Translations under genes and position numbers: made by a program
The notes under the pieces: generated by a model
Told to the model about the DNA's origin: nothing
Database searches by the model: none
The model's input: the letters and a program-made list of their open reading frames with translations, nothing else
Source of the DNA: Vicinamibacterales bacterium
GTDB lineage: Bacteria > Acidobacteriota > Vicinamibacteria > Vicinamibacterales > Fen-181
Length of the DNA: 64,000 bases
Assembly (NCBI GenBank): GCA_036504215.1
Contig: DASXVO010000021.1
Coordinates: forward strand, 1-64,000
Reading direction: 5' to 3'
Shown here: positions 19,046 to 58,439 of the stretch, piece by piece
How positions within the stretch are numbered: the first letter of the stretch is position 1
How the letters are laid out: the number at the start of each line of letters is the position of its first letter

Positions 19046-20278
19046 TTGGCCGACATCCCGAACGGTGGCGCCGCGCGCGCCGGTTCCATCTCTCCATGGC
19101 TCGTGCTCGCCCTGCTGGCGCTTGGCGAGTTCCTCGGCATGACGCTCTGGTTCTCGGCAACCGCCGTGACCGGCGCGCTGGTGGGCGAGTTCCGTCTCTC
19201 GGCCGGCCAGACCGCGTGGCTGACGATGGCCGTGCAGGGCGGGTTCGTGGCGGGCACGCTGGTGAGCGCGGTGTTGAACCTGCCCGATCTGATCGCCACC
19301 CGGCGTCTGTTCGCGCTCGGCTGCTTCTGCGGTGCCGTCGTCACCTCGGCGATCACGTTGACCCACGGCGCGACCCCCGCCATCGCGCTGCGGTTCGCGA
19401 CAGGCGTCGCGCTCGCATTGGTCTACCCGACCGGAATGAAGATCGTCTCCGGCTGGTTCAGGGATCGGCGCGGCACGGCGCTGGCCGTGCTCGTCGCCGC
19501 GCTCACCGTCGGGCAGGCGTTCCCGTATCTGCTCGCGTCGCTCGTCGGCTCCGCAAGCTGGCGGACGCAGATGCTCGTCACCGCCGGCCTGGCGGTCGTC
19601 GGCGGGTTGATCGTGTTGCTGTTCGTCCATGAGGGGCCCTACGATGCGCCGGCCGAACGCTTCGATCCCCACGCCGCGGTCCGCGTCTACATCGACCGCC
19701 GCACCCGCTTCGCGGTGTTCGGCTACCTCGGACACCAGTGGGAGTTGTATGCGATGTGGACGTGGATTGGCACCTTCGCCGGCGCAAGCCTCGCAGCGCA
19801 CGGCCAGACCGAGGTGGCGCGCGCGGCGTCCGCCGTGGCGTTCATCGGCGTCGGAGCCGGGGCGATCGGGTGCCTCATGGCCGGCTTCGCCGGCGATCGC
19901 CTCGGCAAGGCGCGGGTCGCTGGCCTGGCGCTGCGGGTCTCGGGGTGCTGCGCACTCCTGTCGGGCCTGGTCTACGGCCGCCATCCCCTCCTGCTCTTCC
20001 TCTTCGTGGCCGTCTGGGGCACCGCCGTCGTCGCCGACTCGGCGCAATTCTCTGCGCTCGTGGCCGACAACAGCCGTCCGGAGTACGTGGGCACCGCGCT
20101 CACGGTCGAAACCTGCAGCGGCTATCTGCTGACGATGCTCACCATCCGCCTCGTCCCGACGCTCGCGGGGTTCTTTGGCTGGCAGTGGGTGTTCCTCGCG
20201 CTCGTGCCCGGGCCGGTGTTTGGGGCGTGGGCGGTACGACGGATACAAGTCGGAACTGACGGTCTCAGTCGAGACTGA
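19046..20278 (+). CDS. MFS transporter
   Basis: About 410 residues with some 12 membrane helices, opening with LALLALGEFLGMTLWFSATAV, a sequence seen in MFS permeases of the NarK/CynX-like type. YPTGMKIVSGWFRDRRGTALAVL is the MFS loop and helix 5 region. The frame is open back to 18776, but the intervening stretch is a low-complexity spacer. A TTG at 19046 is the best start just before the first helix, with only a weak ribosome site, so the start is uncertain. The last codons and stop (VGTDGLSRD) lie inside a 19-bp tandem repeat. The substrate is unknown. Confidence 0.72.
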   Translation: MADIPNGGAARAGSISPWLVLALLALGEFLGMTLWFSATAVTGALVGEFRLSAGQTAWLTMAVQGGFVAGTLVSAVLNLPDLIATRRLFALGCFCGAVVTSAITLTHGATPAIALRFATGVALALVYPTGMKIVSGWFRDRRGTALAVLVAALTVGQAFPYLLASLVGSASWRTQMLVTAGLAVVGGLIVLLFVHEGPYDAPAERFDPHAAVRVYIDRRTRFAVFGYLGHQWELYAMWTWIGTFAGASLAAHGQTEVARAASAVAFIGVGAGAIGCLMAGFAGDRLGKARVAGLALRVSGCCALLSGLVYGRHPLLLFLFVAVWGTAVVADSAQFSALVADNSRPEYVGTALTVETCSGYLLTMLTIRLVPTLAGFFGWQWVFLALVPGPVFGAWAVRRIQVGTDGLSRD

Positions 20279-20358
20279 CGCACTCAGTCGGACGACGAGC
20301 CTGCCAGTCGGGGCTGACGATGTCAGTCGGAGCTGACGATGCCAGTCGGGGCGGGCCT
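20248..20358. repeat. 19-bp tandem repeat over the MFS stop codon
   Basis: Five to six imperfect copies of a 19-base unit, consensus AGTCGGRRCTGACGNTGTC, begin before the MFS stop codon and run into the spacer. Each unit with its neighbour can form a small GTCAG/CTGAC stem. A further GCGGGC/GCCCGC stem closes the array (20351-20368). A related single unit lies at the stop codon of the giant RCC1 gene, 12.3 kb away. Confidence 0.8.
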
Positions 20359-20765
20359 GCGCGCCCGCAGCGCCAGCGATGACCCGAAAACGAGCAGGCA
20401 GTTGGCAGGCCAGCGACCGGCCCCACAGTTCCTCGACATGGCGATCGCGTCCGAACTCAAGAAGGCGGGAAAGGTCGCGGGGTCAGCCAAGAGGCAGCGG
20501 CTGGTCGTCATCGGACCTGGCCTCACCCGCCCGCATGGATGCCGCCGCTCCAGTCGCTCGATGACACAGCCAGTTGTCGCCTTTCTGATATAACGACTTT
20601 ACGCAGGGCCAGCTCCACGAGGTGTGGTATAAGGCGCTGTCGATCTCGTGTTCCGCTGTGGCGCCGTCGCCGTTCAAACCCACACAAGTTCTCACCGCGT
20701 CACGCAGAACGAGGCTCGCGGATTCGCTCCGAATCGCGCCCTTCATCCAGTTGGGAGAAGTCGGC
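20359..20765 (+). promoter_or_regulatory. Leader region of the giant RCC1 gene
   Basis: This is a 400-base gap without a convincing gene. TATAAC (20589-20594) and TATAAG (20628-20633) are possible -10 boxes, but neither has a good -35 at 17 bases. A ribosome site, GGGAGAAG, lies just before the ATG at 20766. Confidence 0.3.
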
Positions 20766-23700
20766 ATGCGGCAAAAACCCGTCGTGCTCGTTGGCCTGGT
20801 CGCGGTCATCGCGTTGTGCGCAGCCGGCGTCCAGGTCTGGGCGACGGGAGCAGTTCAGGGGCGGCCAGCACTGTCCGGAGGAGCCGGCGCGGCGGCAACC
20901 GACGCGACAGCCATTGGCCCGGCGCCCGCGCCGGAAGCCAAACCCATGGGCGCCACGATCGTGGCGCCGACCGTCGGGGGGAACATCGACCCTGCCGCAC
21001 TCGAGAGCGATTCCGCGGGGCGCAACCAGGCGACACCCGTCGCAGCCGGCGAACCACCGATCCCGGCGAGTTTCCCAACCTCAATCGGTGCGATGCGCAG
21101 CAACCCACCCGAGGCGCGGGGCCCGTCGGACGCGCCGCCCCGCCTGCCCGAATCCGGTCCGAACTCGGTGGTAGCGGTCGCCACCGCGTCCTATCCCTGG
21201 TCGTCGCCGACATCGAACTACCACACCTGTGCCCTGACGGCCGCGGGCGCGGTGAAGTGCTGGGGCCCGAACGAGAGCGGGCAGTTGGGCAACAGCACGT
21301 ACGCCGATTCCACGACGCCGGTCGATGTCAGCACGCTCTCGAGCGGTGTGGCGAGCATCGTGACAGGCGCGAACCACAGTTGCGCGTTGACGACGGCGGG
21401 CGGCGTGAAGTGCTGGGGATCCAACAGCTGGGGGCAGATCGGCGACGGCACCTGGAACTGGCGCTCGGCGCCCGTGGACGTCACCGGCCTCACGAGCGGG
21501 GTTCTGGCGGTGACGGCTGGCGCCTACCATACATGCGCACTGATCACCGGCGGTGCCCTGAAGTGCTGGGGCTACAACACCTACGGCCAGTTGGGTGACG
21601 GCACCACATCCAACCGCAATGCGCCGGTCGATGTCACGAACGCGAGCAACGGCTTCGCGGGGATTTCCGCCGGCGGCGTGCACACCTGCGCGGTGACGTC
21701 TGGCGGCGGCGTGAAGTGCTGGGGCTACAACTCATACGGCCAGGTTGGCGACGGCACGACGACGAGCCGAAGCGTGGCAACCGACGTGAGCGGCGCTGCC
21801 AGCGGCTTCAGTGTCGTGGCGTCCGGTGGTCTGAGTACATGCGCCATCACCACGGGCGGCGGGCTCAAGTGCTGGGGCTACAACAACTACGGCCAACTGG
21901 GCGACACCACCACCTTCCAGCGCACCTCGCCGGTCCCCGTCTCCGGGCTTGTGAGCGGTGTCATCTCCGTCAGTCTCGGCTCGAACCATACGTGCGCCAC
22001 ACTGACCGGCGGCGCCTTGAAGTGCTGGGGAAGCAACTCGAGTGGCCAGATCGGTGATGGAACGACGACTACGCGCAGCACGCCAACAACAGTGAGCGGC
22101 CTGTCGAGTGTCGCCGTCGTCGCCGCCGGCGATGTCCATTCGTGCGCGGCAACCACAGACGGTCGGCTCCACTGCTGGGGAGGCGACGGGCTCGGTCAGT
22201 TGGGTGATACGCCGACGACCGGCCGGCTGTTGCCGGGCGGCGTGCAGGGGGTGGAAGCGGCCACGCTCGCGACCAGCGCGGCCGCACACACCTGCGTGGC
22301 GACGGGCACCGGCATGCAGTGCTGGGGGCTCAACTCGAACGGTCAGCTGGGCAACGGCACCATGACGAACCGGACCACGCCCGGCGATGTGCCAGGCATC
22401 GGTCCGGGCGTGGCGGCGATCGGCGCGAGGAATCAGTTCACCTGCACGCTGACGTCGGCCGGCGGCGTGAAGTGCTGGGGATACAACGGCTCGGGCCAGC
22501 TGGGCGACGGCACCACCACGGCGAAGACCACGCCGGCCGATGTCGCCGGCCTCGCCAGCGGTGTGACCGCGCTGGCCGTCGGCCCGGAGTTCGCCTGCGC
22601 CCTGACCACCGCTGGCGGCGTGAAATGCTGGGGAGGGAACTGGAATGGAGAGTTGGGCGACGGCACCACCACCAGTCGCAGCGTGCCAGGCGATGTGACC
22701 GGCCTCACGAGCGGGGTCGTCGCGATCGGCGCCGGCGGCAACCACGGCTGCGCCGTCATGACTGCCGGCACCATCAAGTGCTGGGGCTGGAACGGAAGCG
22801 GACAACTCGGCGACAGCACCACCACGCGTCCGGCGGCGCCAGTCGACGTGGTCGGCATCTCCAGCGGAACCAAGTCGCTCGCGCTGGGCTCGAACCACTC
22901 CTGCGCCCTGGCAACGGCGGGAACCGTCAAGTGCTGGGGCTCGAACTGGGCCGGACAGCTTGGGGACGGAACCTGGACGCAGCGAACGACTCCAGTCGAC
23001 GTTGTTGGCCTCGGCGGCGTGGCGACGCTGACAGCAGGCTCGTCACACACCTGCGGCATCACGAGTGGGGGCAACCTCCAGTGCTGGGGCTGGAACCAGT
23101 ACGGTCAACTCGGCGACGGGACGACCTCGGCCCGCTGGGCCCCAACCGCCATCACCGGTCTCGCCGGTGCCGCAGCGGCTATCGGTGCTGGCGACCGCCA
23201 CACGTGCGCGGTCCTCACTTCCGGCGCGGTGCAGTGCTGGGGTTCCGACGCCAACGGCCAACTCGGCTCGGGCCGCGCGCTCTTCCGGCCGTTCCCGGCG
23301 GAGCTCGGCGGTTTCGGTAGCGCTCTCGCGACGGTGACGCCGGGCAACTCGGTTCAGATCTACGACGGCACCGCGAAGGCCACGACGGTGGCGACCACGC
23401 CGCCGGGTCTTGCCGTCACGACCACGTACACCGGCATCGGCGACACGACCTACGCGCAGAACGTGACGGCACCGAGCGCGGCGGGCACCTACCTGGTCGT
23501 GGCGGTGGTGAGCGACGCGGCCTATGTCGGCTCCGGCAGCGGCACCCTGGTGATCAACAATGCCGCCCCCACCGTGGCCTCCATCAGCCCGTCATCCGCG
23601 CCGGACTACTCCTTCACGCCGGTCACTATCACCGGCACGAACTTCATGCCTGGAGTGTCGGTCCGTCTGAACGGCGCGCTGCTGCCATCGACGTTCGTGA

Positions 23701-26700
23701 ACAGCACCACGCTGACGGCGGTCGTGCCGCCAGGCGCGGCGGGCGTCGCCGCGGTCTTCGTGCGCAACCCCGAACCGACGTCCGGTAACGCGGCCTCGAA
23801 CTTTGCGTACCTCGCCTATCCGCGCATCACATCGCTGGCGCCCGCGTCAGGTCCGGCCGGCACGTCGGTGACGATCACCGGCACGAACTTCAGCGACACC
23901 GATGCGGCGGTGTCGTTCGGCGGCCAGGCGGCGGCGGTGACGAGCCGCTCGGCCACGCAGATCGTGGCGACGGTGCCCGGCGGCACCGCCAGCGGCCTCG
24001 TCGATGTCACGGTCACGAACGTCGCGCTGGGCCGGAGCCGGACGTACACACGCGCCTATTCGGTCGGGACGGCGCGGCCTGGCGTGGCCGGCGCCATCGC
24101 CGCGGGTGGAGCGTTCTCGTGCGCGGTCACGAGCACGGGCGGCGTGCAGTGCTGGGGATCGAACGGGGCGAATGAGCTTGGCGACGGGACGACCGTCAGC
24201 CGGTCGGTGCCAGCCGCCGTGTCCGGGCTCACGAGCGGGATGGCCGGCGTCACGGCCGGCAGTTCGGGCTCCCACGGGTGTGCGCTCACGACCGGCGGCG
24301 GTGTGAAGTGCTGGGGCCAGAACGGCTACGGCCAGCTCGGTGACGGCACGACGACGAGCCGGTCGATGCCGGTCGATGTCGTGAGCCTGCCGAGCGGCAT
24401 CGTGGCGGTGACCGCCAGCGGGTCCCACACCTGCGCCCTGACGATGAACGGCGGCGTGAAGTGCTGGGGGCGGAATATGTATGGAGAGGTCGGCGACAAC
24501 ACCACGACCGACCGCTCGAGCCCGACGGACGTCGTCGGCCTGGCAAACGGCGTGCGCGCGATCGGCGTGGGCCTCTACCACTCGTGCGCGGTGCTCACCG
24601 ATGGCAACGCCAGGTGCTGGGGCCGGAACAACTACGGTCAGCTCGGCGACGGGACGACGACCGATCGTCCGACGCCCGTCGTCGTCCAGGGCTGGTCGGG
24701 CGGCGCGGCGGTCGTCGTGGGCGGCTACTACCACACCTGCGCGATTACCTCGAGCGGGGTCAGTTGTTGGGGCTACAACAGCTCCGGCCAACTGGGCGAC
24801 GGGAGCACGACGAACCGGACGGCGCCCGGTGCCGTGTCCGGCTTGGCGGCCGGCGTGACAGCGCTCGCTGCGGGCGGAAACCATACGTGTGCCGTGGCGA
24901 CCGACGGCACGGCGAGATGCTGGGGCTCCAACCCCGCCGGCCAACTCGGCGACGGGACCACGACGAATCGGTCAACACCGGTCAGCGTCTCCGGCCTCGC
25001 CGCGAGCGCGAGCGCCGTCGCCGGCGGCTCCGATCACACCTGCGCGCTCCTCGCCGACGGCGGCGTGCAGTGCTGGGGCAATGACGTCCTGGGCGGAACG
25101 GGCTCTGGCACGACGGTCTTACGCACGGTCCCGGGCGATGTGTCCACGCTGGCGACGGGGGGCCTCGACCTCACAGCCGGGATGTATCATGCCTGCGCGC
25201 TGACGTCTGGAGGCGTGGTCAAGTGCTGGGGCAGCAACATCAGCGGCCAACTCGGCGATGGCACGACGGTCAGCCGAGCCCTGCCGGCCGCCGTGATTGG
25301 CCTGCAGGCCGGGATCAGAGGCGTCGCCGCCGGGATGTCGCATGCCTGCGCCATCACGAGCGGCGGCGGCGTGAAGTGCTGGGGCCAGAACTCCAACGGT
25401 CAACTCGGCGATGGCACGACGACGATGCGATTTACGCAAGCGGACGTGACAGGACTGACGAGCGGCGTCTCGGCGGTCACCGCCGGGTCTTACCACACCT
25501 GCGCACTGACATCCTCCGGCGGCGTGAAGTGCTGGGGCTCCAACTCGTCCGGCCAGCTCGGTGACAACACCACCACGCAGCGCTCGGCTCCTGTTGACGT
25601 CTCCGGTCTGACGAGCGGCGTCATCGGCCTCACGGCGGGCTACTCCCACACGTGCGCCCTGATGGGCGCGGGCGGCATGAAGTGCTGGGGCTCCAACTCG
25701 TACGGCCAGCTTGGCGATGGCACGACCACGCAGCGTCTCGCGCCCGTCGACGTCAGCGGCCTCGCTGCCGGCGTCGGTGGTGTCGCAGCGGGCGCGGGGG
25801 CCAATCACACCTGCGCGTGGACGACTGGCGGCGCGCTCAAGTGCTGGGGCGCGAACTCCTACGCCCAGGTCGGCGACGGAAGCTACACGAACCGAACCGC
25901 ACCCGTCGATGTGACCGGCCTGTCGAACGGCGTCAGCGCTGTCGCAGCAAGCGCCTATCACACCTGCGCACTGACAAGCGGGGGTGGCGTCAAGTGCTGG
26001 GGGAGCGGCCAGTACGGCGCGGTCGGCGACGGCAGCACGACGACCCGTCTCACCCCGGTCGATGTCGTCAACCTGTCGAGCGGCGTCACCTCCATCGCGG
26101 CAGGGTCCAGCTACAGCTGTGCCGTGACGGGCAGCGGCGGCATCCAGTGCTGGGGCGACAACTCGATGGGTCAACTCGGCGATGGCCGGCCGCTGATCCG
26201 GCTGTACCCCTCCAACGCCAGCGGCTACGGCGCCATCGTGATCCTGGGCAACCTCGATCAGACCTACGACGGCACGCCCAAGGCGGTCACGGCAGCCACC
26301 GTGCCCCCGGGCCTGGCCGTGACGATAACGTATCGCGGAACCGGAACGACCACGTACGGGCCCACCACCGCAGCGCCGACAGATCCGGGCTGGTACGTCG
26401 TAGTGGCCACCGTCAACGACTCGACCATCGCCGGCTCCGGATCGGCGGGCGCCACGCTCACGATCAACAACGCCGTGCCGGTGGTGTCGTCGGTCGCCCC
26501 GCCCTCTGGCCCAGACTTCGGCGGCACTCTCATCACGGTGTCGGGAACCGGCTTTAGGCCTGGCGCGACGGTGCAGATTAACGGTCTCGCGGCAGCGGGC
26601 GTCTACGTCAACGCGACGACCATGACGGCCGTGACGCCGTCCTCGGCCGCCGCCGGCGCGGCGACGGTCACGGTTCGCAATCCGGACCCGACGCCGGGCG

Positions 26701-29700
26701 CCGCGACGACCACCTTCACCTACCTGGCCTATCCGGCCGTGACCGGCATCGCGCCGGCGTCCGGGACAGCCGGAACGGCCGTCACGATCACCGGGAGGAA
26801 CTTCGCCAGCGACGTGGCGACCGTGTTCGGGTCGAGCACCGGCCCCGTGACCAACGCGTCGGCCACCCAGATTGTCGCGACCGTGCCGAGCGGCCTGTCG
26901 CCAGGGCCCGTTGATCTCACCGTGGTCAACGTCACGCTGGGGCAAAGCCGGACGTACCAGCGGGCGTTCACGATCGGCACCGTGCTGGCGGGCACCGCGA
27001 ATACCGTGGCCGGAGGCGGCTCGTTCACGTGCGCGGTCACGAGCACCGGCGGCGTGCAGTGCTGGGGCGACAACTCCTCCGGCCAACTCGGCGACGGCAC
27101 GACCATGCCGCGCGGCACGCCAACCGACGTCCCCGGCCTCACGGCCGGGATGAAAGCCGTCGTTGCGGGCTACAGACACAGTTGCGCGCTCACCAGCGGG
27201 GGCGGCGTCCTGTGTTGGGGCGACAACAATTACGGCCAGCTCGGCGACGGCACGACGAAGAATCGGGTTACCCCGGTGGACGTTGCCGGTCTCGGAGGCG
27301 GCGTCGTTGCGCTCGCCGGCGGCTCCAACCACACCTGCGCGATCACGAATGGCGGCGGCGTCAAGTGCTGGGGCTCCAACAGCTATGGGCAGCTCGGGGA
27401 TGGCACGACGACGCAGCGCATGCTCCCGGTGGATGTGCCCGCGCTCCTTGCCGGCATCACGGGACTGACGGCGGGCACGTCCCATACCTGCGCTGTCACC
27501 GGCGCAGGCGCGGTCCAATGCTGGGGCTACAACAACTACGGCCAACTTGGGGACGGGACGACGACGAACCGAAGCACCCCGGTCGGTGTGGTTGGCCTGG
27601 CCACGGGCGTGACGGCGGTGGCGGGCGGCAACTACCACAGCTGCGCGCTCGCCGGCAGCGGCGCCGTGATGTGCTGGGGCCAGAACTTCTCCGGTCAACT
27701 CGGCGACGGCACGACCACCGGCGCCGTCAGCCCGGTGGCCGTGGCCGGCCTGGCGAGTGATGTGGCGGGATTGACCGCCGGCAGTTCCCACACCTGTGCC
27801 TTCACGGCCGGCGGAGCGGTGCAGTGCTGGGGCAGCAACACGTCTGGACAGCTAGGCGATTCCACCCTGACGAACCGACCGACGCCGGTCACCGTGGTCA
27901 ACCTCGCCGGAGCCGTTGCGGCACTCGACGCCGGCGACTCGCACACGTGTGCCACCATCCGGGGCGGCGGCGTCCAGTGCTGGGGCTCGAACGCTTACGG
28001 CCAGCTCGGGGATTCGTCGGTCGTGGTTCGGACGGCGCCGGCCGATGTGGCGACCTCGGTGGCCGCGAGCGCGCTGGCGGTTGGCGGTTCCCACGCGTGC
28101 CGCCTCGTGACTGGCGGCGTGCAGTGCTGGGGGTTGAACTCGAGCGGCCAACTCGGAGACTACACGACGATCAGCCGATCGCTGCCGGCCAATGTCGTCG
28201 GTATGACCGGCGCCTCCGGCATCGCCGCGGGGGGATCGCATTCCTGCGCGACGACCGCCAGCGGTGGCGTGAAGTGCTGGGGTAGTAACAGCTACGGCCA
28301 GGTGGGAATCGGATCTACCGGAGGCAGCCGCTCCACCCCAAGCGATGTCGTCGGCCTGAGCGATGCGGCGCTGGTCGGAGCCGGCTCGAACCACACGTGC
28401 GCGCTGACAGCCAGTGGCGCGGTGACGTGCTGGGGCTACAACAACTACGGCCAACTGGGAGACGGATCCGCGACGAATCGTTCCACGCCGGTAGCCGTAT
28501 CGGGTCTCGCGAGCGGCGCGACCGCGCTCGCCGCGGGCGGCAGCCACACGTGCGCCGTCACCGCCGGAGGCGGCGTGAAGTGCTGGGGCTACAACTCCAG
28601 CGGCCAGCTGGGAGACGCGTCCACCACGAGCCGAAGCACGCCCGTGGATGTCACCGGGCTGGCCAGCGGCGTGGTTGGCCTGGCGGCAGGCTACTCCCAC
28701 ACGTGCGCGCTGACGAGCAGCGGCGGTGTGAAGTGCTGGGGCTCCAACTACTATGGTCAACTCGGTGACGGATCGACCACGACGCGCACCACGCCAGTCG
28801 ATGTGACGAGCCTGGCGAGCGGGGTCACCGCCATCGGCGCCGGCTACTACCACACGTGCGCGATCACGACCGGCGGCGGGGCGCAGTGCTGGGGCCAGAA
28901 TTCGAGCGGGCAACTGGGCGACGGCTCGCTGGTGAATCGCTCCACGCCCGTCGATGCCACGGGCCTGACGAGTGGCGTCCTGTCTATCGGTGGTGGGAGC
29001 AGCCATTCGTGCGCGCTGGTGACCGGAGGCGGGGTCAAGTGCTGGGGCAACGATTCGACCGGGCAACTGGGCAGCGGCCGGGCGCTCCTCCAGCCCGCGC
29101 CAGCCGATGCGGCCGGGTACGGCGCCAGCGTCACGCTGTCGAATCTAGTACAGACGTATGACGGCACGCCGAAATCCGCGGCTGTCGGCACCACGCCGAC
29201 CGGCCTGACGGTGGCGGTCACCTACCTCGGCATCGACGGGACGATGTACGGCCCGACCACGACACCACCGACGGACGGAGGCACCTACCTCGTGATGGCG
29301 AAGGTTGCCGACGCGGTGTACAGCGGATCCGGCAGCGCCACGCTGATCGTCTACAACCCGATCCCCGCCATCGCCACGCTCACCCCGTCGTCGGGACCCG
29401 ACGCGGGCGGAACGACGATCACGATCTCCGGCGCGGGCTTCCGGCCGGGGGTGCTGGTGCAGATCGGCGGCCTCACGGCGGCGGGTGTCTACGTCAACGA
29501 CACGACGATGACGGCTACGGCGCCCTCGTCCGCGCTTGCGGGCATTGTCGACGTGTTCGTCAGAAACGCCGAGCCCGCGCTGCCAGGGCGGGCGTCGAGC
29601 ACCTTCACGTATCTCGCGTACCCCCGAATCACCTCGCTCTTGCCGGGCTTCGGCATCGCAGGCACCGTCGTGACGATCACGGGCGCGAACTTCAGCAACA

Positions 29701-32597
29701 CCGATGCGGCGGTCACGTTCGGATCGATCCAGGCGGCCGTCTCGAGTCGGTCGGTCACGCAGGTCGTGGTGACCGTCCCGTCCGGCCTCCCGCTGGGACC
29801 TGCCGACGTCACGATCGCGAACGTGGCGCAGGGGCGGGGCCGCACCTATGCGCGACTGTTCACGGTCGGCCCGACACCCGTCCGCCTCGTCAACACGGTG
29901 GCGGTTGGTACCGGTCACGTGTGTGCGACCAGTGCGAGCGGCGTGAAGTGCTGGGGCGACAACGACTACGGCCAATTGGGCGATGGGACGACAACGACCC
30001 CGGCGGCGCCGGTGGACGTCGTGGGCCTCGGAGGAGGCGTCACGGCGGTGGCGGCAGGCGGCGACCACACGTGCGCGCTGACGAGCGGCGGCGGTGTGAG
30101 GTGTTGGGGGTACAACTACTATGGCCAACTCGGCAACGGCACGACGACGAACCAGAGCCTTCCGGTGGACGTTGTCGGACTCTCGAGCGGCGTGGTGGCC
30201 ATTGCCGCCGGGTACTCCCACACCTGCGCGCTGACGAGCGGCGGAGCGGTCAAGTGCTGGGGCTATAACTCCTACGGCCAACTGGGCGACGGCAGCCTGT
30301 CGGATCGGAGCGTGCCGGCCGACGTGGCGGGGCTGACGGTTGGCGCGGTCGGGGTGACCGCGGGCTACTATCACAACTGCGCGGTGACGGGCGCCGGGGC
30401 CGTGAAGTGCTGGGGCAACAACACGAACGGACAGCTGGGAGATGGGACCGCCACCCGGGCCACGATACCGGTGGCGGTGCTCGGTCTGACGGGTGGAGTC
30501 CGGGCCGCAGCCGCCGGGTACTATCACACGTGCGCCATCACGGACACCGGTGGCAAGTGCTGGGGCGACAACACGTACGGCCAGGTCGGTGACGGAACGA
30601 CGGTCAACCGATGGGCCCCCGTGGACGTGCCCGGGCTGGCCGGCGGTCTCGCCGGCGTGGCCGCCGGCTACTATCACACGTGCGTGCTCGCGAGCACCGG
30701 CGGAGTTCAGTGCTGGGGCCGGAATCAGGCCGGCCAACTGGGCGACGGCACGACGACGGATCGTGGGACACCCGGGGGCGTAAGCGGCGTCAGCGGTGCC
30801 AGCATGGTGGCCGCCGGGTACTACAACACCTGCGTCGCAATCGGAACGGGAACCGTGAGGTGCTGGGGCGGCAATTCCTACAGGCAACTGGCCGACGGGT
30901 CCCCGACGATGCGCCTCACTCCGAGCCCGGTCGCTGGTGTGTCGAATGCCACGTCGAAGATCGCGAGCGGCTACTCCAGTTCGTGCGTGATCACGGGCGC
31001 GGGTGCGGTGCAGTGCTGGGGCGCGAACAACTACGGTCAGCTGGGAAACGGCACGTTCACGGACTGCAGCACGGCTGCAACCGTCACGGGGATCTCCAGC
31101 GGCGCAAGTGCGATCGCGGCCGGCGGGTACCGCGCGTGCGCGGTGACGGGCGCGGGCGGCGCCAAGTGCTGGGGCTCGAATACCTGGGGCGCGCTGGGAA
31201 CTGGCGTGCTCCCGCCCACGGCCGGACCCGTGCCATCGCCCGCGGACGTCGTGGGCCTGACCAGCGGCGTGGTGTCGTTGGCCGCGGGCTCCTACCACAC
31301 TTGCGCCCTGACGCAGACTGGCGGGGTCAAGTGCTGGGGCCGCAACACGTCTGGCGAGGTGGACGCCACGACGTCCACGAGGTACACACCAGTTGACGTC
31401 GCGGGGTTGACGAGTGGCGTCGTCGCACTGGCCGCCGGCTACTCACACGTGTGCGCCATCATGAACGGCGGCGCCGTAAAGTGCTGGGGCTCCAACGGAC
31501 ACGGCGAACTGGGAAACGGCGCGACCACCAACTCCAGTTCACCAGTGGCCGTTTCCGGCCTGTCGAATGGAGTCACGGCACTCGTTGCAGGGGACTACCA
31601 CACCTGCGCGCTCACCACCGGAGGAGGGGTGAAGTGCTGGGGCGCCAACGCCGAGGGCGAACTCGGTGACGGCACGAACGTCGGCCGTCTCACGCCGGCC
31701 GATGTGGTTGGCTTGGACTCCGGCGTCACCGCGATCGGGAGTCGCTACGAACACACGTGCGCCGTCCGCAACGGCGGCACCCTCTGCTGGGGCTACAACA
31801 ACCATGGCCAGCTCGGAGACGGGACGACCACCGACAGCTGGATACCGGTGAGTGTCGCCGGCCTGTCCGGCGGAGTGGTCGGGGTTACGTGCGGCATGTA
31901 CCATTCGTGCGCGGTCAAGGACGACGGTACGGCCATGTGCTGGGGCTACGACGCCAACGGTCAGCTTGGCGACGGCCGGCTGGTCTACAGTGCCGTGCCG
32001 CTCGAGATAGCGGGCCTTGGGAAGACTGCGGCCACGGTCGCTCTCGACAACCTCACCCAGGTCTTCGACGGATCATCGAAGGCCGCGACGGTAACGACGA
32101 CGCCGGCCGGCCTGGCGGTGATCGTCACCTACACGGGGGTCGGCGGCACGACCTACGGACGGACGTCGGCACCGCCGACGCTCGTGGGCACCTACTCCGT
32201 GGTGGCCATGATTGACGATGCGAACTACTCCGGATCGGCTGGGGGCACGCTGACGATCGGCCTCGGGAGCGCGCCCGCCATCACCGACGATCCGCTGCTG
32301 GCGCGGACGGCGCGTGTGAAGGCGATTCACTTCAACGAGCTGCGGACGGCGATCGACAAGCTGCGTGCGGGGCACGGCCTGTCCGCGGCGGCCTGGACGG
32401 ACCAGCCGCTCGTCGGCGGTGTGACGCCGGTGAAGGCCATCCACCTGGCGGAGCTGCGGACGGCGCTGGCGGAGGTGTACACTGCGGCGGGCCGCGAGGC
32501 GCCGGCCTGGAACCCGACGACGATCACCGCCCGCGCGACGGTGATCACGGCGGCGCAGATCACCGAGGTGCGGCAGGCGGTGATGGGGATTTGGTAG
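20766..32597 (+). CDS. Giant exported RCC1-repeat protein, 3,943 residues
   Basis: The ATG at 20766 follows GGGAGAAG. A signal peptide (VVLVGLVAVIALCAAGVQVWA) is followed by about 120 residues of Pro/Ala-rich linker. Then come four tandem modules, each with exactly 14 RCC1 units of about 51 residues (core HTCALT..GGVKCWG, then YGQLGDGTTT). Each module is followed by an MBG-like domain (YDGTxK), and modules 1-3 also by two IPT/TIG domains. The tail (about 3838-3943) has three xHxxELR-type repeats. RCC1 units form seven-bladed propellers, so each module could be two propellers. Almost every unit carries a Cys-x9-Cys pair. A surface adhesion or ligand-binding role is a guess. No enzyme motif is seen. 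It stands alone, converging on the Mrp gene. Confidence 0.85.
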   Translation: MRQKPVVLVGLVAVIALCAAGVQVWATGAVQGRPALSGGAGAAATDATAIGPAPAPEAKPMGATIVAPTVGGNIDPAALESDSAGRNQATPVAAGEPPIPASFPTSIGAMRSNPPEARGPSDAPPRLPESGPNSVVAVATASYPWSSPTSNYHTCALTAAGAVKCWGPNESGQLGNSTYADSTTPVDVSTLSSGVASIVTGANHSCALTTAGGVKCWGSNSWGQIGDGTWNWRSAPVDVTGLTSGVLAVTAGAYHTCALITGGALKCWGYNTYGQLGDGTTSNRNAPVDVTNASNGFAGISAGGVHTCAVTSGGGVKCWGYNSYGQVGDGTTTSRSVATDVSGAASGFSVVASGGLSTCAITTGGGLKCWGYNNYGQLGDTTTFQRTSPVPVSGLVSGVISVSLGSNHTCATLTGGALKCWGSNSSGQIGDGTTTTRSTPTTVSGLSSVAVVAAGDVHSCAATTDGRLHCWGGDGLGQLGDTPTTGRLLPGGVQGVEAATLATSAAAHTCVATGTGMQCWGLNSNGQLGNGTMTNRTTPGDVPGIGPGVAAIGARNQFTCTLTSAGGVKCWGYNGSGQLGDGTTTAKTTPADVAGLASGVTALAVGPEFACALTTAGGVKCWGGNWNGELGDGTTTSRSVPGDVTGLTSGVVAIGAGGNHGCAVMTAGTIKCWGWNGSGQLGDSTTTRPAAPVDVVGISSGTKSLALGSNHSCALATAGTVKCWGSNWAGQLGDGTWTQRTTPVDVVGLGGVATLTAGSSHTCGITSGGNLQCWGWNQYGQLGDGTTSARWAPTAITGLAGAAAAIGAGDRHTCAVLTSGAVQCWGSDANGQLGSGRALFRPFPAELGGFGSALATVTPGNSVQIYDGTAKATTVATTPPGLAVTTTYTGIGDTTYAQNVTAPSAAGTYLVVAVVSDAAYVGSGSGTLVINNAAPTVASISPSSAPDYSFTPVTITGTNFMPGVSVRLNGALLPSTFVNSTTLTAVVPPGAAGVAAVFVRNPEPTSGNAASNFAYLAYPRITSLAPASGPAGTSVTITGTNFSDTDAAVSFGGQAAAVTSRSATQIVATVPGGTASGLVDVTVTNVALGRSRTYTRAYSVGTARPGVAGAIAAGGAFSCAVTSTGGVQCWGSNGANELGDGTTVSRSVPAAVSGLTSGMAGVTAGSSGSHGCALTTGGGVKCWGQNGYGQLGDGTTTSRSMPVDVVSLPSGIVAVTASGSHTCALTMNGGVKCWGRNMYGEVGDNTTTDRSSPTDVVGLANGVRAIGVGLYHSCAVLTDGNARCWGRNNYGQLGDGTTTDRPTPVVVQGWSGGAAVVVGGYYHTCAITSSGVSCWGYNSSGQLGDGSTTNRTAPGAVSGLAAGVTALAAGGNHTCAVATDGTARCWGSNPAGQLGDGTTTNRSTPVSVSGLAASASAVAGGSDHTCALLADGGVQCWGNDVLGGTGSGTTVLRTVPGDVSTLATGGLDLTAGMYHACALTSGGVVKCWGSNISGQLGDGTTVSRALPAAVIGLQAGIRGVAAGMSHACAITSGGGVKCWGQNSNGQLGDGTTTMRFTQADVTGLTSGVSAVTAGSYHTCALTSSGGVKCWGSNSSGQLGDNTTTQRSAPVDVSGLTSGVIGLTAGYSHTCALMGAGGMKCWGSNSYGQLGDGTTTQRLAPVDVSGLAAGVGGVAAGAGANHTCAWTTGGALKCWGANSYAQVGDGSYTNRTAPVDVTGLSNGVSAVAASAYHTCALTSGGGVKCWGSGQYGAVGDGSTTTRLTPVDVVNLSSGVTSIAAGSSYSCAVTGSGGIQCWGDNSMGQLGDGRPLIRLYPSNASGYGAIVILGNLDQTYDGTPKAVTAATVPPGLAVTITYRGTGTTTYGPTTAAPTDPGWYVVVATVNDSTIAGSGSAGATLTINNAVPVVSSVAPPSGPDFGGTLITVSGTGFRPGATVQINGLAAAGVYVNATTMTAVTPSSAAAGAATVTVRNPDPTPGAATTTFTYLAYPAVTGIAPASGTAGTAVTITGRNFASDVATVFGSSTGPVTNASATQIVATVPSGLSPGPVDLTVVNVTLGQSRTYQRAFTIGTVLAGTANTVAGGGSFTCAVTSTGGVQCWGDNSSGQLGDGTTMPRGTPTDVPGLTAGMKAVVAGYRHSCALTSGGGVLCWGDNNYGQLGDGTTKNRVTPVDVAGLGGGVVALAGGSNHTCAITNGGGVKCWGSNSYGQLGDGTTTQRMLPVDVPALLAGITGLTAGTSHTCAVTGAGAVQCWGYNNYGQLGDGTTTNRSTPVGVVGLATGVTAVAGGNYHSCALAGSGAVMCWGQNFSGQLGDGTTTGAVSPVAVAGLASDVAGLTAGSSHTCAFTAGGAVQCWGSNTSGQLGDSTLTNRPTPVTVVNLAGAVAALDAGDSHTCATIRGGGVQCWGSNAYGQLGDSSVVVRTAPADVATSVAASALAVGGSHACRLVTGGVQCWGLNSSGQLGDYTTISRSLPANVVGMTGASGIAAGGSHSCATTASGGVKCWGSNSYGQVGIGSTGGSRSTPSDVVGLSDAALVGAGSNHTCALTASGAVTCWGYNNYGQLGDGSATNRSTPVAVSGLASGATALAAGGSHTCAVTAGGGVKCWGYNSSGQLGDASTTSRSTPVDVTGLASGVVGLAAGYSHTCALTSSGGVKCWGSNYYGQLGDGSTTTRTTPVDVTSLASGVTAIGAGYYHTCAITTGGGAQCWGQNSSGQLGDGSLVNRSTPVDATGLTSGVLSIGGGSSHSCALVTGGGVKCWGNDSTGQLGSGRALLQPAPADAAGYGASVTLSNLVQTYDGTPKSAAVGTTPTGLTVAVTYLGIDGTMYGPTTTPPTDGGTYLVMAKVADAVYSGSGSATLIVYNPIPAIATLTPSSGPDAGGTTITISGAGFRPGVLVQIGGLTAAGVYVNDTTMTATAPSSALAGIVDVFVRNAEPALPGRASSTFTYLAYPRITSLLPGFGIAGTVVTITGANFSNTDAAVTFGSIQAAVSSRSVTQVVVTVPSGLPLGPADVTIANVAQGRGRTYARLFTVGPTPVRLVNTVAVGTGHVCATSASGVKCWGDNDYGQLGDGTTTTPAAPVDVVGLGGGVTAVAAGGDHTCALTSGGGVRCWGYNYYGQLGNGTTTNQSLPVDVVGLSSGVVAIAAGYSHTCALTSGGAVKCWGYNSYGQLGDGSLSDRSVPADVAGLTVGAVGVTAGYYHNCAVTGAGAVKCWGNNTNGQLGDGTATRATIPVAVLGLTGGVRAAAAGYYHTCAITDTGGKCWGDNTYGQVGDGTTVNRWAPVDVPGLAGGLAGVAAGYYHTCVLASTGGVQCWGRNQAGQLGDGTTTDRGTPGGVSGVSGASMVAAGYYNTCVAIGTGTVRCWGGNSYRQLADGSPTMRLTPSPVAGVSNATSKIASGYSSSCVITGAGAVQCWGANNYGQLGNGTFTDCSTAATVTGISSGASAIAAGGYRACAVTGAGGAKCWGSNTWGALGTGVLPPTAGPVPSPADVVGLTSGVVSLAAGSYHTCALTQTGGVKCWGRNTSGEVDATTSTRYTPVDVAGLTSGVVALAAGYSHVCAIMNGGAVKCWGSNGHGELGNGATTNSSSPVAVSGLSNGVTALVAGDYHTCALTTGGGVKCWGANAEGELGDGTNVGRLTPADVVGLDSGVTAIGSRYEHTCAVRNGGTLCWGYNNHGQLGDGTTTDSWIPVSVAGLSGGVVGVTCGMYHSCAVKDDGTAMCWGYDANGQLGDGRLVYSAVPLEIAGLGKTAATVALDNLTQVFDGSSKAATVTTTPAGLAVIVTYTGVGGTTYGRTSAPPTLVGTYSVVAMIDDANYSGSAGGTLTIGLGSAPAITDDPLLARTARVKAIHFNELRTAIDKLRAGHGLSAAAWTDQPLVGGVTPVKAIHLAELRTALAEVYTAAGREAPAWNPTTITARATVITAAQITEVRQAVMGIW
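21220..24070 (+). repeat. RCC1 module 1 (14 units, MBG, two IPT/TIG)
   Basis: Fourteen CWG-marked RCC1 units (about residues 150-850) are followed by an MBG-like domain (about 857-932, IYDGTAKATTVATTPPGL). Two IPT/TIG domains follow (about 933-1099, PTVASISPSSAPDYSFTPVT and ITSLAPASGPAGTSVTI). Confidence 0.8.
24085..26975 (+). repeat. RCC1 module 2 (14 units, MBG, two IPT/TIG)
   Basis: This repeats the order of module 1 at a spacing of about 2.9 kb. There are fourteen CWG units, then TYDGTPKAVTAATVPPGL, then two IPT/TIG domains (VSSVAPPSGPDFGGTLIT and VTGIAPASGTAGTAVTI). Confidence 0.8.
27000..29870 (+). repeat. RCC1 module 3 (14 units, MBG, two IPT/TIG)
   Basis: Fourteen CWG units, then TYDGTPKSAAVGTTPTGL, then two IPT/TIG domains (IATLTPSSGPDAGGTTIT and ITSLLPGFGIAGTVVTI). 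Many 20-base stretches are nearly identical to those of the other modules. Confidence 0.8.
29885..32265 (+). repeat. RCC1 module 4 (14 units, MBG only)
   Basis: Fourteen CWG units and an MBG-like domain (VFDGSSKAATVTTTPAGL), without the IPT/TIG pair. This is the most divergent module: units 7-10 are irregular and unit 9 is longer, with an inserted PPTAGPVPS. Confidence 0.8.
32278..32594 (+). repeat. C-terminal ELR repeat domain of the giant protein
   Basis: Three units in about 105 residues: VKAIHFNELRTAIDKLR, VKAIHLAELRTALAEVY and ITAAQITEVRQAV. I recall similar tails on other acidobacterial exported proteins, which would make it a possible surface or sorting domain. That recollection is unchecked. 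Confidence 0.65.
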
Positions 32598-32706
32598 TCG
32601 GAACTGGCGCTGTCAGCACCGCACGTGCTGTACCCTCAGCACCCGTGGCACCGCCAGCACTGGAACCTTCAGCACCTTGAGCACCCCCAGCACCCTTCGC
32701 ACCTGA
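32596..32706. repeat. 19-bp unit plus GCACCNNNN tandem repeat after the giant gene
   Basis: One copy of the 19-base unit seen at 20248 (16 of 19 bases match its first copy) starts inside the giant gene's stop codon. It is followed by a perfect CAGCAC/GTGCTG hairpin (32614-32630), which may act as a terminator. A run of 9-base GCACCNNNN units follows. No gene lies here. Confidence 0.65.
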
Positions 32707-32714
32707 CCCTGTCG

Positions 32715-33800
32715 TTATCTCGCAACCTCCGTGACCGGGATGACCGGCTTCCGGTAGCTTGCGATCGACACCTGGGCCGCCAGTTGCTCGGCGGCGGACA
32801 TGAAGGCGCGTGTCGCGGGCGCGTCGGGCTCGGCGATGACGAGCGGCTGCCCTGCGTCGCCGCCGCGGCGGATCGGCTCGTAGATCGGGATCCGGCCCAG
32901 GAACGGCACGTTCATCGCCTCCGCCGTCCGCTCCCCGCCGCCCCGCCCGAAGATGTCGCTCTCGTGCTCACAATTCGGGCACACGAAGTAGCTCATGTTC
33001 TCGATGATCCCGAGCACCGGGATGTTGAGCTTCTCGTACATCCGCACGGCACGGCGGCTGTCCGCGAGCGACACCTCCTGCGGCGTCGTCACGACGATCG
33101 CGCCTGCGACCGGCACGGTCTGGCTGAGGCTCAGCGCGACGTCGCCGGTCCCCGGCGGCATGTCGATGATCAGATAGTCCAGTTCGCCCCACTTCACCTC
33201 GTGAAAGAACTGCTTGACGACGCTGTGCAGCATCGGCCCGCGCCAGATGACGGGCGCGTCGTCGTTGGTCAGGAACCCCATCGACACGACCTTGATGCCG
33301 TGCTTCTCGGCCGGCAGGATCTTCTCGTCCTCGGCCATCAACTGACCCTGGATGCCGAGCATCATCGGCACGTTCGGTCCGTAGATGTCGCCGTCGATCA
33401 TGCCGACCCGGCTGCCGAGTTTCGCGAGCGCCACGGCCAGGTTCACCGCGAGCGTCGTCTTGCCGACGCCGCCCTTCCCCGCCCCGATGGCGACGATGTT
33501 CTTGACCCCGGGGATCGGCGCCTGCGCCGAGCCGACATTGTGCGCGGCACGAACCTGGGCGGTCATGGTCACGTCAACGCTGGTGACGCCAGCTATCCGC
33601 GACACCGCTGCGCGCGCCTGATCGCGCATTGCGTCCTTGACCGGGCACGCGGGGGTGGTGAGTTCGATGGTGAACGCAACGGCTCCGCCGTCGATCGTGA
33701 GACCCTTCACGAAGCCGAGCGACACGATGTCCTTGTGGAGGTCGGGATCCTTGACGGCGCGAAGCGCGTTGAGAACGGCAGTCTGGTCGAGAGCGGACAT
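32715..33800 (-). CDS. Mrp/NBP35-family Fe-S carrier ATPase
   Basis: This 361-residue P-loop ATPase is of the type that carries and delivers Fe-S clusters. An N-terminal MIP18-like domain (about residues 5-80, VKDPDLHKDIVSLGFV) precedes the deviant Walker A GKGGVGKTT (108-116). IDMPPGTGD and the cluster-binding CPNC pair (Cys274, Cys277) follow. The ATG at 33800 has a good GAGGAG site. An ATG at 33836, overlapping the upstream stop as ATGA, would add 12 residues and is also possible. The overlap with a large Fe-S flavoprotein gene suggests it may service that enzyme. Confidence 0.9.
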   Translation of the reverse strand: MSALDQTAVLNALRAVKDPDLHKDIVSLGFVKGLTIDGGAVAFTIELTTPACPVKDAMRDQARAAVSRIAGVTSVDVTMTAQVRAAHNVGSAQAPIPGVKNIVAIGAGKGGVGKTTLAVNLAVALAKLGSRVGMIDGDIYGPNVPMMLGIQGQLMAEDEKILPAEKHGIKVVSMGFLTNDDAPVIWRGPMLHSVVKQFFHEVKWGELDYLIIDMPPGTGDVALSLSQTVPVAGAIVVTTPQEVSLADSRRAVRMYEKLNIPVLGIIENMSYFVCPNCEHESDIFGRGGGERTAEAMNVPFLGRIPIYEPIRRGGDAGQPLVIAEPDAPATRAFMSAAEQLAAQVSIASYRKPVIPVTEVAR

Positions 33801-58273: not shown

Positions 58274-58439
58274 CTTTCTTCCTTCCGCCTTCCACCTTCC
58301 ACCTTCCGCCTTCATCCTTCCTCCTTCCGCCTTCATCCTTCCTCCTTCCGCCTTCATCCTTCCGCCTTCATCCTTCCTCCTTCCGCCTTCATCCTTCCTC
58401 TTTCCTCCTTCCTCCTTCATCGTTCCTCCTTTCTCCTGC
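58274..58439. repeat. Long heptad pyrimidine repeat (CTTCCNN/CTTCATC)
   Basis: More than 20 units of a 7-base repeat (CTTCCGC, CTTCATC, CTTCCTC) fill the spacer directly before the RDD gene. Frames through it translate to repetitive PPSSF- or KAEGGRM-like strings that should not be taken as genes. Confidence 0.9.

Follow-up and report, generated by a model that had tools for sequence, protein, structure and literature searches.

The window analysed here is a stretch of 64,000 nucleotides from a Vicinamibacterales bacterium (Acidobacteriota; contig DASXVO010000021.1), and it carries a gene encoding a giant protein of 3,943 residues (Table 1). We found that the ATG at 20,766 lies inside an open frame on the forward strand (20,622–32,597) and is preceded, at a distance of 5 nt, by the AG-rich stretch GGGAGAAG. 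The most hydrophobic 19-residue windows of the protein all fall within residues 1–30, and the Sec-type signal sequence predicted at its N-terminus (MRQKPVVLVGLVAVIALCAAGVQVWA) supports the preliminary description of the product as exported. The upstream neighbors of the gene encode an MFS transporter and an M16 peptidase, while downstream there are genes for a prolyl oligopeptidase, an outer-membrane beta-barrel protein and a DUF5916 protein. No obvious operon or partner was recognized among these neighbors, no Rfam element was found between 20,000 and 33,200, and no sigma-70-like promoter was seen upstream of the gene. Three repeat tracts were also noted in the window: shortly before the gene (20,248–20,352), a degenerate tandem repeat of about 19 or 39 nt (AGTCGGAGCTGACGATGCC...); CAGCACC-rich imperfect repeats directly past its stop codon (32,630–32,720); and the heptamer TTCCTCC repeated 23 times with an 80% match (58,276–58,437), a simple repeat of the length-variable kind.

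The protein contains 56 CWG motifs, split 14/14/14/14. Within the sets the CWG-to-CWG distance is mostly 51 residues (range 49–55), the sets are separated by three gaps of 303–305 residues each, and the starts of consecutive modules are 964, 970, and 963 residues apart, which corresponds to 2.89–2.91 kb. Pfam recognized 56 stretches of RCC1_2 (PF13540, 1287 bits, E = 0), and PF25390 scored 1782 bits; both profiles exceed their curated cut-offs, so that the units belong by profile to the RCC1 superfamily. MBG_3 was detected four times (E = 1e-62) and IPT/TIG six times (E = 1e-67), with one IPT/TIG pair following each of sets 1–3. The length and the count of 56 units in four sets of 14, the four MBG domains with three IPT/TIG pairs, and the module spacing of about 2.9 kb, all given in the preliminary description, were thereby borne out.

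Table 1. Features of the RCC1 multi-propeller gene and of its C-terminal domain (positions in the window; propeller assignments are predicted).
Feature	Position	Strand	Basis or remark
Gene of RCC1 multi-propeller protein	20766..32597	+	3,943 residues; CWG motif count, Pfam
Sec-type signal sequence, predicted	20766..20846	+	Sequence and hydropathy
Module 1, propeller 1 (units 1–7)	21216..22277	+	CWG count, unit-consensus seam
Module 1, propeller 2 (units 8–14)	22278..23345	+	CWG count, unit-consensus seam
Spacer 1: MBG_3 + IPT/TIG + IPT/TIG	23343..24068	+	Pfam, spacer identity
Module 2, propeller 3 (units 1–7)	24108..25181	+	CWG count, unit-consensus seam
Module 2, propeller 4 (units 8–14)	25182..26246	+	CWG count, unit-consensus seam
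Spacer 2: MBG_3 + IPT/TIG + IPT/TIG	26247..26978	+	Pfam; 57% identity to spacer 1
Module 3, propeller 5 (units 1–7)	27018..28082	+	CWG count, seam, PDB matches
Module 3, propeller 6 (units 8–14)	28083..29141	+	CWG count, seam, PDB matches
Spacer 3: MBG_3 + IPT/TIG + IPT/TIG	29142..29870	+	Pfam; 56% identity to spacer 1
Module 4, propeller 7 (units 1–7)	29907..30971	+	CWG count, unit-consensus seam
Module 4, propeller 8 (units 8–14)	30972..32048	+	CWG count, unit-consensus seam
Last MBG_3 domain, without IPT/TIG pair	32049..32282	+	Pfam, spacer identity
C-terminal domain, three loop + helix repeats, motif [VI]KAxHxxELRxAx	32268..32594	+	Family not in Pfam/NCBIfam
Tail loci	window 32268–32594, L017–L023, L070–L102		Acidobacteriota, Rokubacteria

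As for the number 14, we found that units 7 and 14 show the two lowest identities to the unit consensus in all four modules (0.43–0.51 and 0.37–0.47, with every other unit at 0.53 or above; in module 4, unit 9 scores low too with one profile). Their departure is mainly in the C-terminal half, where identity falls to 0.33 and 0.23 versus 0.50–0.68. The low score of unit 14 is partly explained by its adjoining another domain, which is not the case for unit 7, and the dip at unit 7 is significant upon permutation of interior units (P = 1.5e-4). A dip near the 7/8 boundary also occurs in 12 other 14-unit arrays of related genomes (P = 0.003). In RCC1-type propellers whose structures are known, the ring has seven blades. 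Of 83 complete arrays from relatives, the giant protein left out, 52 have seven units and 14 have 14, which makes 66 arrays of either size in a sample drawn from the stronger RCC1 matches, whose arrays are not independent of each other; a binomial P on these counts is therefore to be read with reserve, although the pattern itself is plain. Both halves of module 3 find their best PDB matches in the UVR8, HERC2, and RCC1 structures (E down to 1e-72), as local alignments that do not fix the ring boundary. The AlphaFold model of this module, computed with the four modules as alignment, was poor (mean pLDDT of 54, about 45 in the RCC1 part) and was not used. In long WD40 arrays, blade numbers have maxima at 7 and 14 (PMC9218822), and there, too, 14 blades are expected to form two rings; the giant protein differs in being of RCC1 lineage and in repeating the 7+7 arrangement four times per chain.

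Each 14-unit set is best read as a seam-marked 7+7, i.e., as two seven-bladed rings, and the whole protein probably consists of eight seven-bladed propellers of the RCC1/BLIP-II type, arranged in four tandem pairs with Ig-like spacers. There would be 14 units per module because two complete rings of seven are present, and no further constraint is needed. The strong structural constraint that had been suggested from the fixed count is supported insofar as most arrays of relatives have 7 or 14 units, but it does not set this protein apart: it is that of the familiar seven-bladed propeller, which most of the phylum's RCC1 arrays included here share. The rule that RCC1 arrays come in sevens offers a means of segmenting giant bacterial proteins made of repeats. 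A single 14-bladed ring per set would agree with the lack of an inserted linker at the 7/8 boundary, across which the distance is 49–51 residues, nearly as elsewhere in the array; however, the seam at unit 7 in four of four modules and the prevalence of seven as array size in relatives make such a ring very improbable, and the largest propellers known are 12-bladed, formed by oligomerization, while a WD40 stretch of 15 blades is predicted as 7+8 (PMC9218822). An assembly artefact behind the repeat number deserves next to no credence. The genome is a draft of 90 contigs, but no direct repeat in the DNA of the gene is exact over more than 33 nt and the units are only about 50% identical to each other at the protein level; with exact repeats this short, the collapse or expansion of repeats by mis-assembly, which the preliminary description named as a finding that would refute it, is unlikely.

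The three MBG-IPT-IPT spacers share 56–57% mutual identity across 241 residues. Elsewhere, among 396 genomes of the phylum, the closest counterpart of a spacer is a partial match that reaches 48% identity. This supports an origin of the modules by duplication within the lineage of the giant protein itself; the whole-module duplication proposed in the preliminary description is upheld, as an old event rather than a recent one. Units with the same index in different modules are barely more alike than other pairs (identity of 0.53 vs. 0.50), so the units appear to have diverged or exchanged since the duplication. We also compared the first propellers with the second for signs of separate descent, and the difference was too small to claim (0.53 vs. 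0.52). The GxGRxL motif marks the terminal unit of all four modules and of L128, and L131 and L132 have close variants of it, but it occurs in none of 51 seven-unit arrays. This distribution gives a hint that some 14-unit pairs were inherited as one unit.

A further property of the units is a pair of cysteines, the first within HTC and the second within CWG, which are separated by about nine to ten residues and lie on neighboring strands. Both are found in all 56 units of the giant protein and account for 112 of its 115 cysteines. Among the 288 units that align at both cysteine positions (56 of them from the giant protein), 177 have both cysteines, 110 neither, one the first only, and none the second only. 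Proteins are wholly with or wholly without the pair; thus, the difference lies between lineages, but the pairing is strict. VKOR and DsbA-family genes are present in the same genome. The simplest reading is one disulfide in each blade, and such strictly paired cysteines in one lineage of bacterial RCC1 propellers make a testable case. A shorter type of blade was observed at L058 (G099 contig 438) and L067, where several proteins carry 13–14 RCC1-like units that are only 37 residues long, each again with this cysteine pair.

The C-terminal tail of the giant protein (residues 3835–3943, i.e., 109 residues) is built of three repeats with the motif [VI]KAxHxxELRxA. AlphaFold predicts three helices (mean pLDDT of 86), giving an all-helical domain of 3 x ~38 residues. 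Among 32 members no Pfam family was assigned, with only scattered sub-threshold matches, and no NCBIfam match was obtained for the tail. A profile search of the PDB yielded no significant match (keratin coiled coils only, E of 0.016), and neither did Foldseek or VIA-align searches with the tail model (best E of 1.6, best Z of 4.1), whose best chains, Csm6 and calponin-homology, are uninformative either way. We found the tail at or beside the C-terminus of seven other proteins of the same genome with unrelated bodies, several of them with visible signal sequences: two carboxypeptidase-regulatory arrays of 3,807 and 3,908 residues, a kelch/lipase-like protein, a C10 peptidase with inhibitor propeptide, a Vps10/BNR protein, a subtilase, and a beta-helix protein. 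Of 32 loci in other genomes (Rokubacteria, Acidobacteria, and a few other groups), 27 have the tail no more than 10 residues before the stop and the remaining 5 have it internally. It is present in only 19 of 149 relatives, with up to 31 copies listed for one of them; a fuller search of what its match positions show to be the same genome (G506/G072) gave 53. Copy numbers thus range from 8 to 53 in the genome of the giant protein and some of its relatives.

As a small domain ending many unrelated exported proteins, the tail resembles the T9SS CTD (Por_Secre_tail), SLH, and dockerin domains, and it shares with SLH the presence of three repeats; it differs from them in lacking a Pfam match and in being predicted as all-helical. 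At E values of 1 or below, none of the 32 tail sequences matched the Por_Secre_tail profile or SLH (PF00395), and there were neither PF00404 matches in these sequences nor paired calcium loops of the DxNxDG type characteristic for dockerins in the tail alignments. The tail is probably undescribed, and it is a more original finding than the propeller protein. This widespread tail without a database family may be the hallmark of a group of surface proteins found in Acidobacteriota and Rokubacteria.

The features of the giant protein suggest how it might act. Sec would export it to the extracellular space or the cell surface, the disulfide in each blade would form after export, and the tail, judging from its distribution, may sort or retain the protein at the surface. 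The eight propellers could then offer multivalent binding faces along a rod of Ig-like spacers, for one or several proteins or glycans as ligands; other RCC1 propellers bind proteins, and BLIP-II, secreted by soil bacteria, is a protein binder (PMC9218822). We give this binding-scaffold function, taken alone, slightly less than even weight. Alternatively, the RCC1 units might be a repetitive stalk or decoy projecting another part, with a surface of little weight and a regular count that reflects merely what folds. Pfam finds no enzyme or known binding domain in the giant protein, IPT and MBG spacers are typical stalk domains, and the contents of E (0.6%) and K (1.2%) are very low, all of which would suit such a role; yet neither end has a distal effector domain to project, and eight wide discs would be a costly stalk, so that we consider it unlikely.

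With regard to the tail, its extreme C-terminal position, unrelated bodies, and many copies lead us to propose, tentatively, that it is an unrecognized domain by which diderm bacteria (Acidobacteriota, Rokubacteria, and others) sort or anchor proteins. Up to dozens of exported proteins with unrelated bodies would use it in a single genome, which would imply an unknown receptor or secretion route, and the giant protein, its 56 blades each stabilized by a disulfide, would be one of the tail's clients. The internal position in some loci and the lack of an identified dedicated partner gene would rather fit an ordinary interaction or dimerization domain without such a role. We regard this as somewhat unlikely, since sorting or anchoring tails show just this distribution, with a mostly terminal domain on very different bodies in many copies per genome.

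The giant protein adds a member of very large size to a known superfamily. It shares with RCC1/BLIP-II proteins (PF00415, PF13540, PF25390) the 51-residue units of the HTxALTxxGxVxxWGxNxxGQLGDGT type and their occurrence in sevens, but differs in its eight predicted propellers per chain, arranged in pairs, in the cysteine pair of each unit, and in having no apparent link to Ran, ubiquitin, or UV-B signaling. We see no reason to expect eukaryotic RCC1 functions such as Ran exchange and UV-B sensing in an exported bacterial protein. In the open-access literature we found no description of this architecture or of the tail. The preliminary description spoke of an unusual surface or secreted system, which is only partly right: the protein is the longest among those examined, but long multi-propeller RCC1 proteins, with up to 35 units in the set examined, are also encoded by relatives. 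In these, e.g., L116 (5 x 7 units, 3,173 residues) and L117, the sevens are likewise split by other domains, which in L041, L042, L045, and L048 are CHB_HEX_C_1/Fn3_assoc; in contrast to the giant protein, their sevens stand singly and mostly lack cysteines, and both the spacers and the C-terminus are different. The second RCC1 protein of the giant protein's own genome, a 3,156-residue frame (L030, 7,069–16,536), has laminin-G, BACON, and CHB_HEX domains besides a single cysteine-free propeller of seven units.
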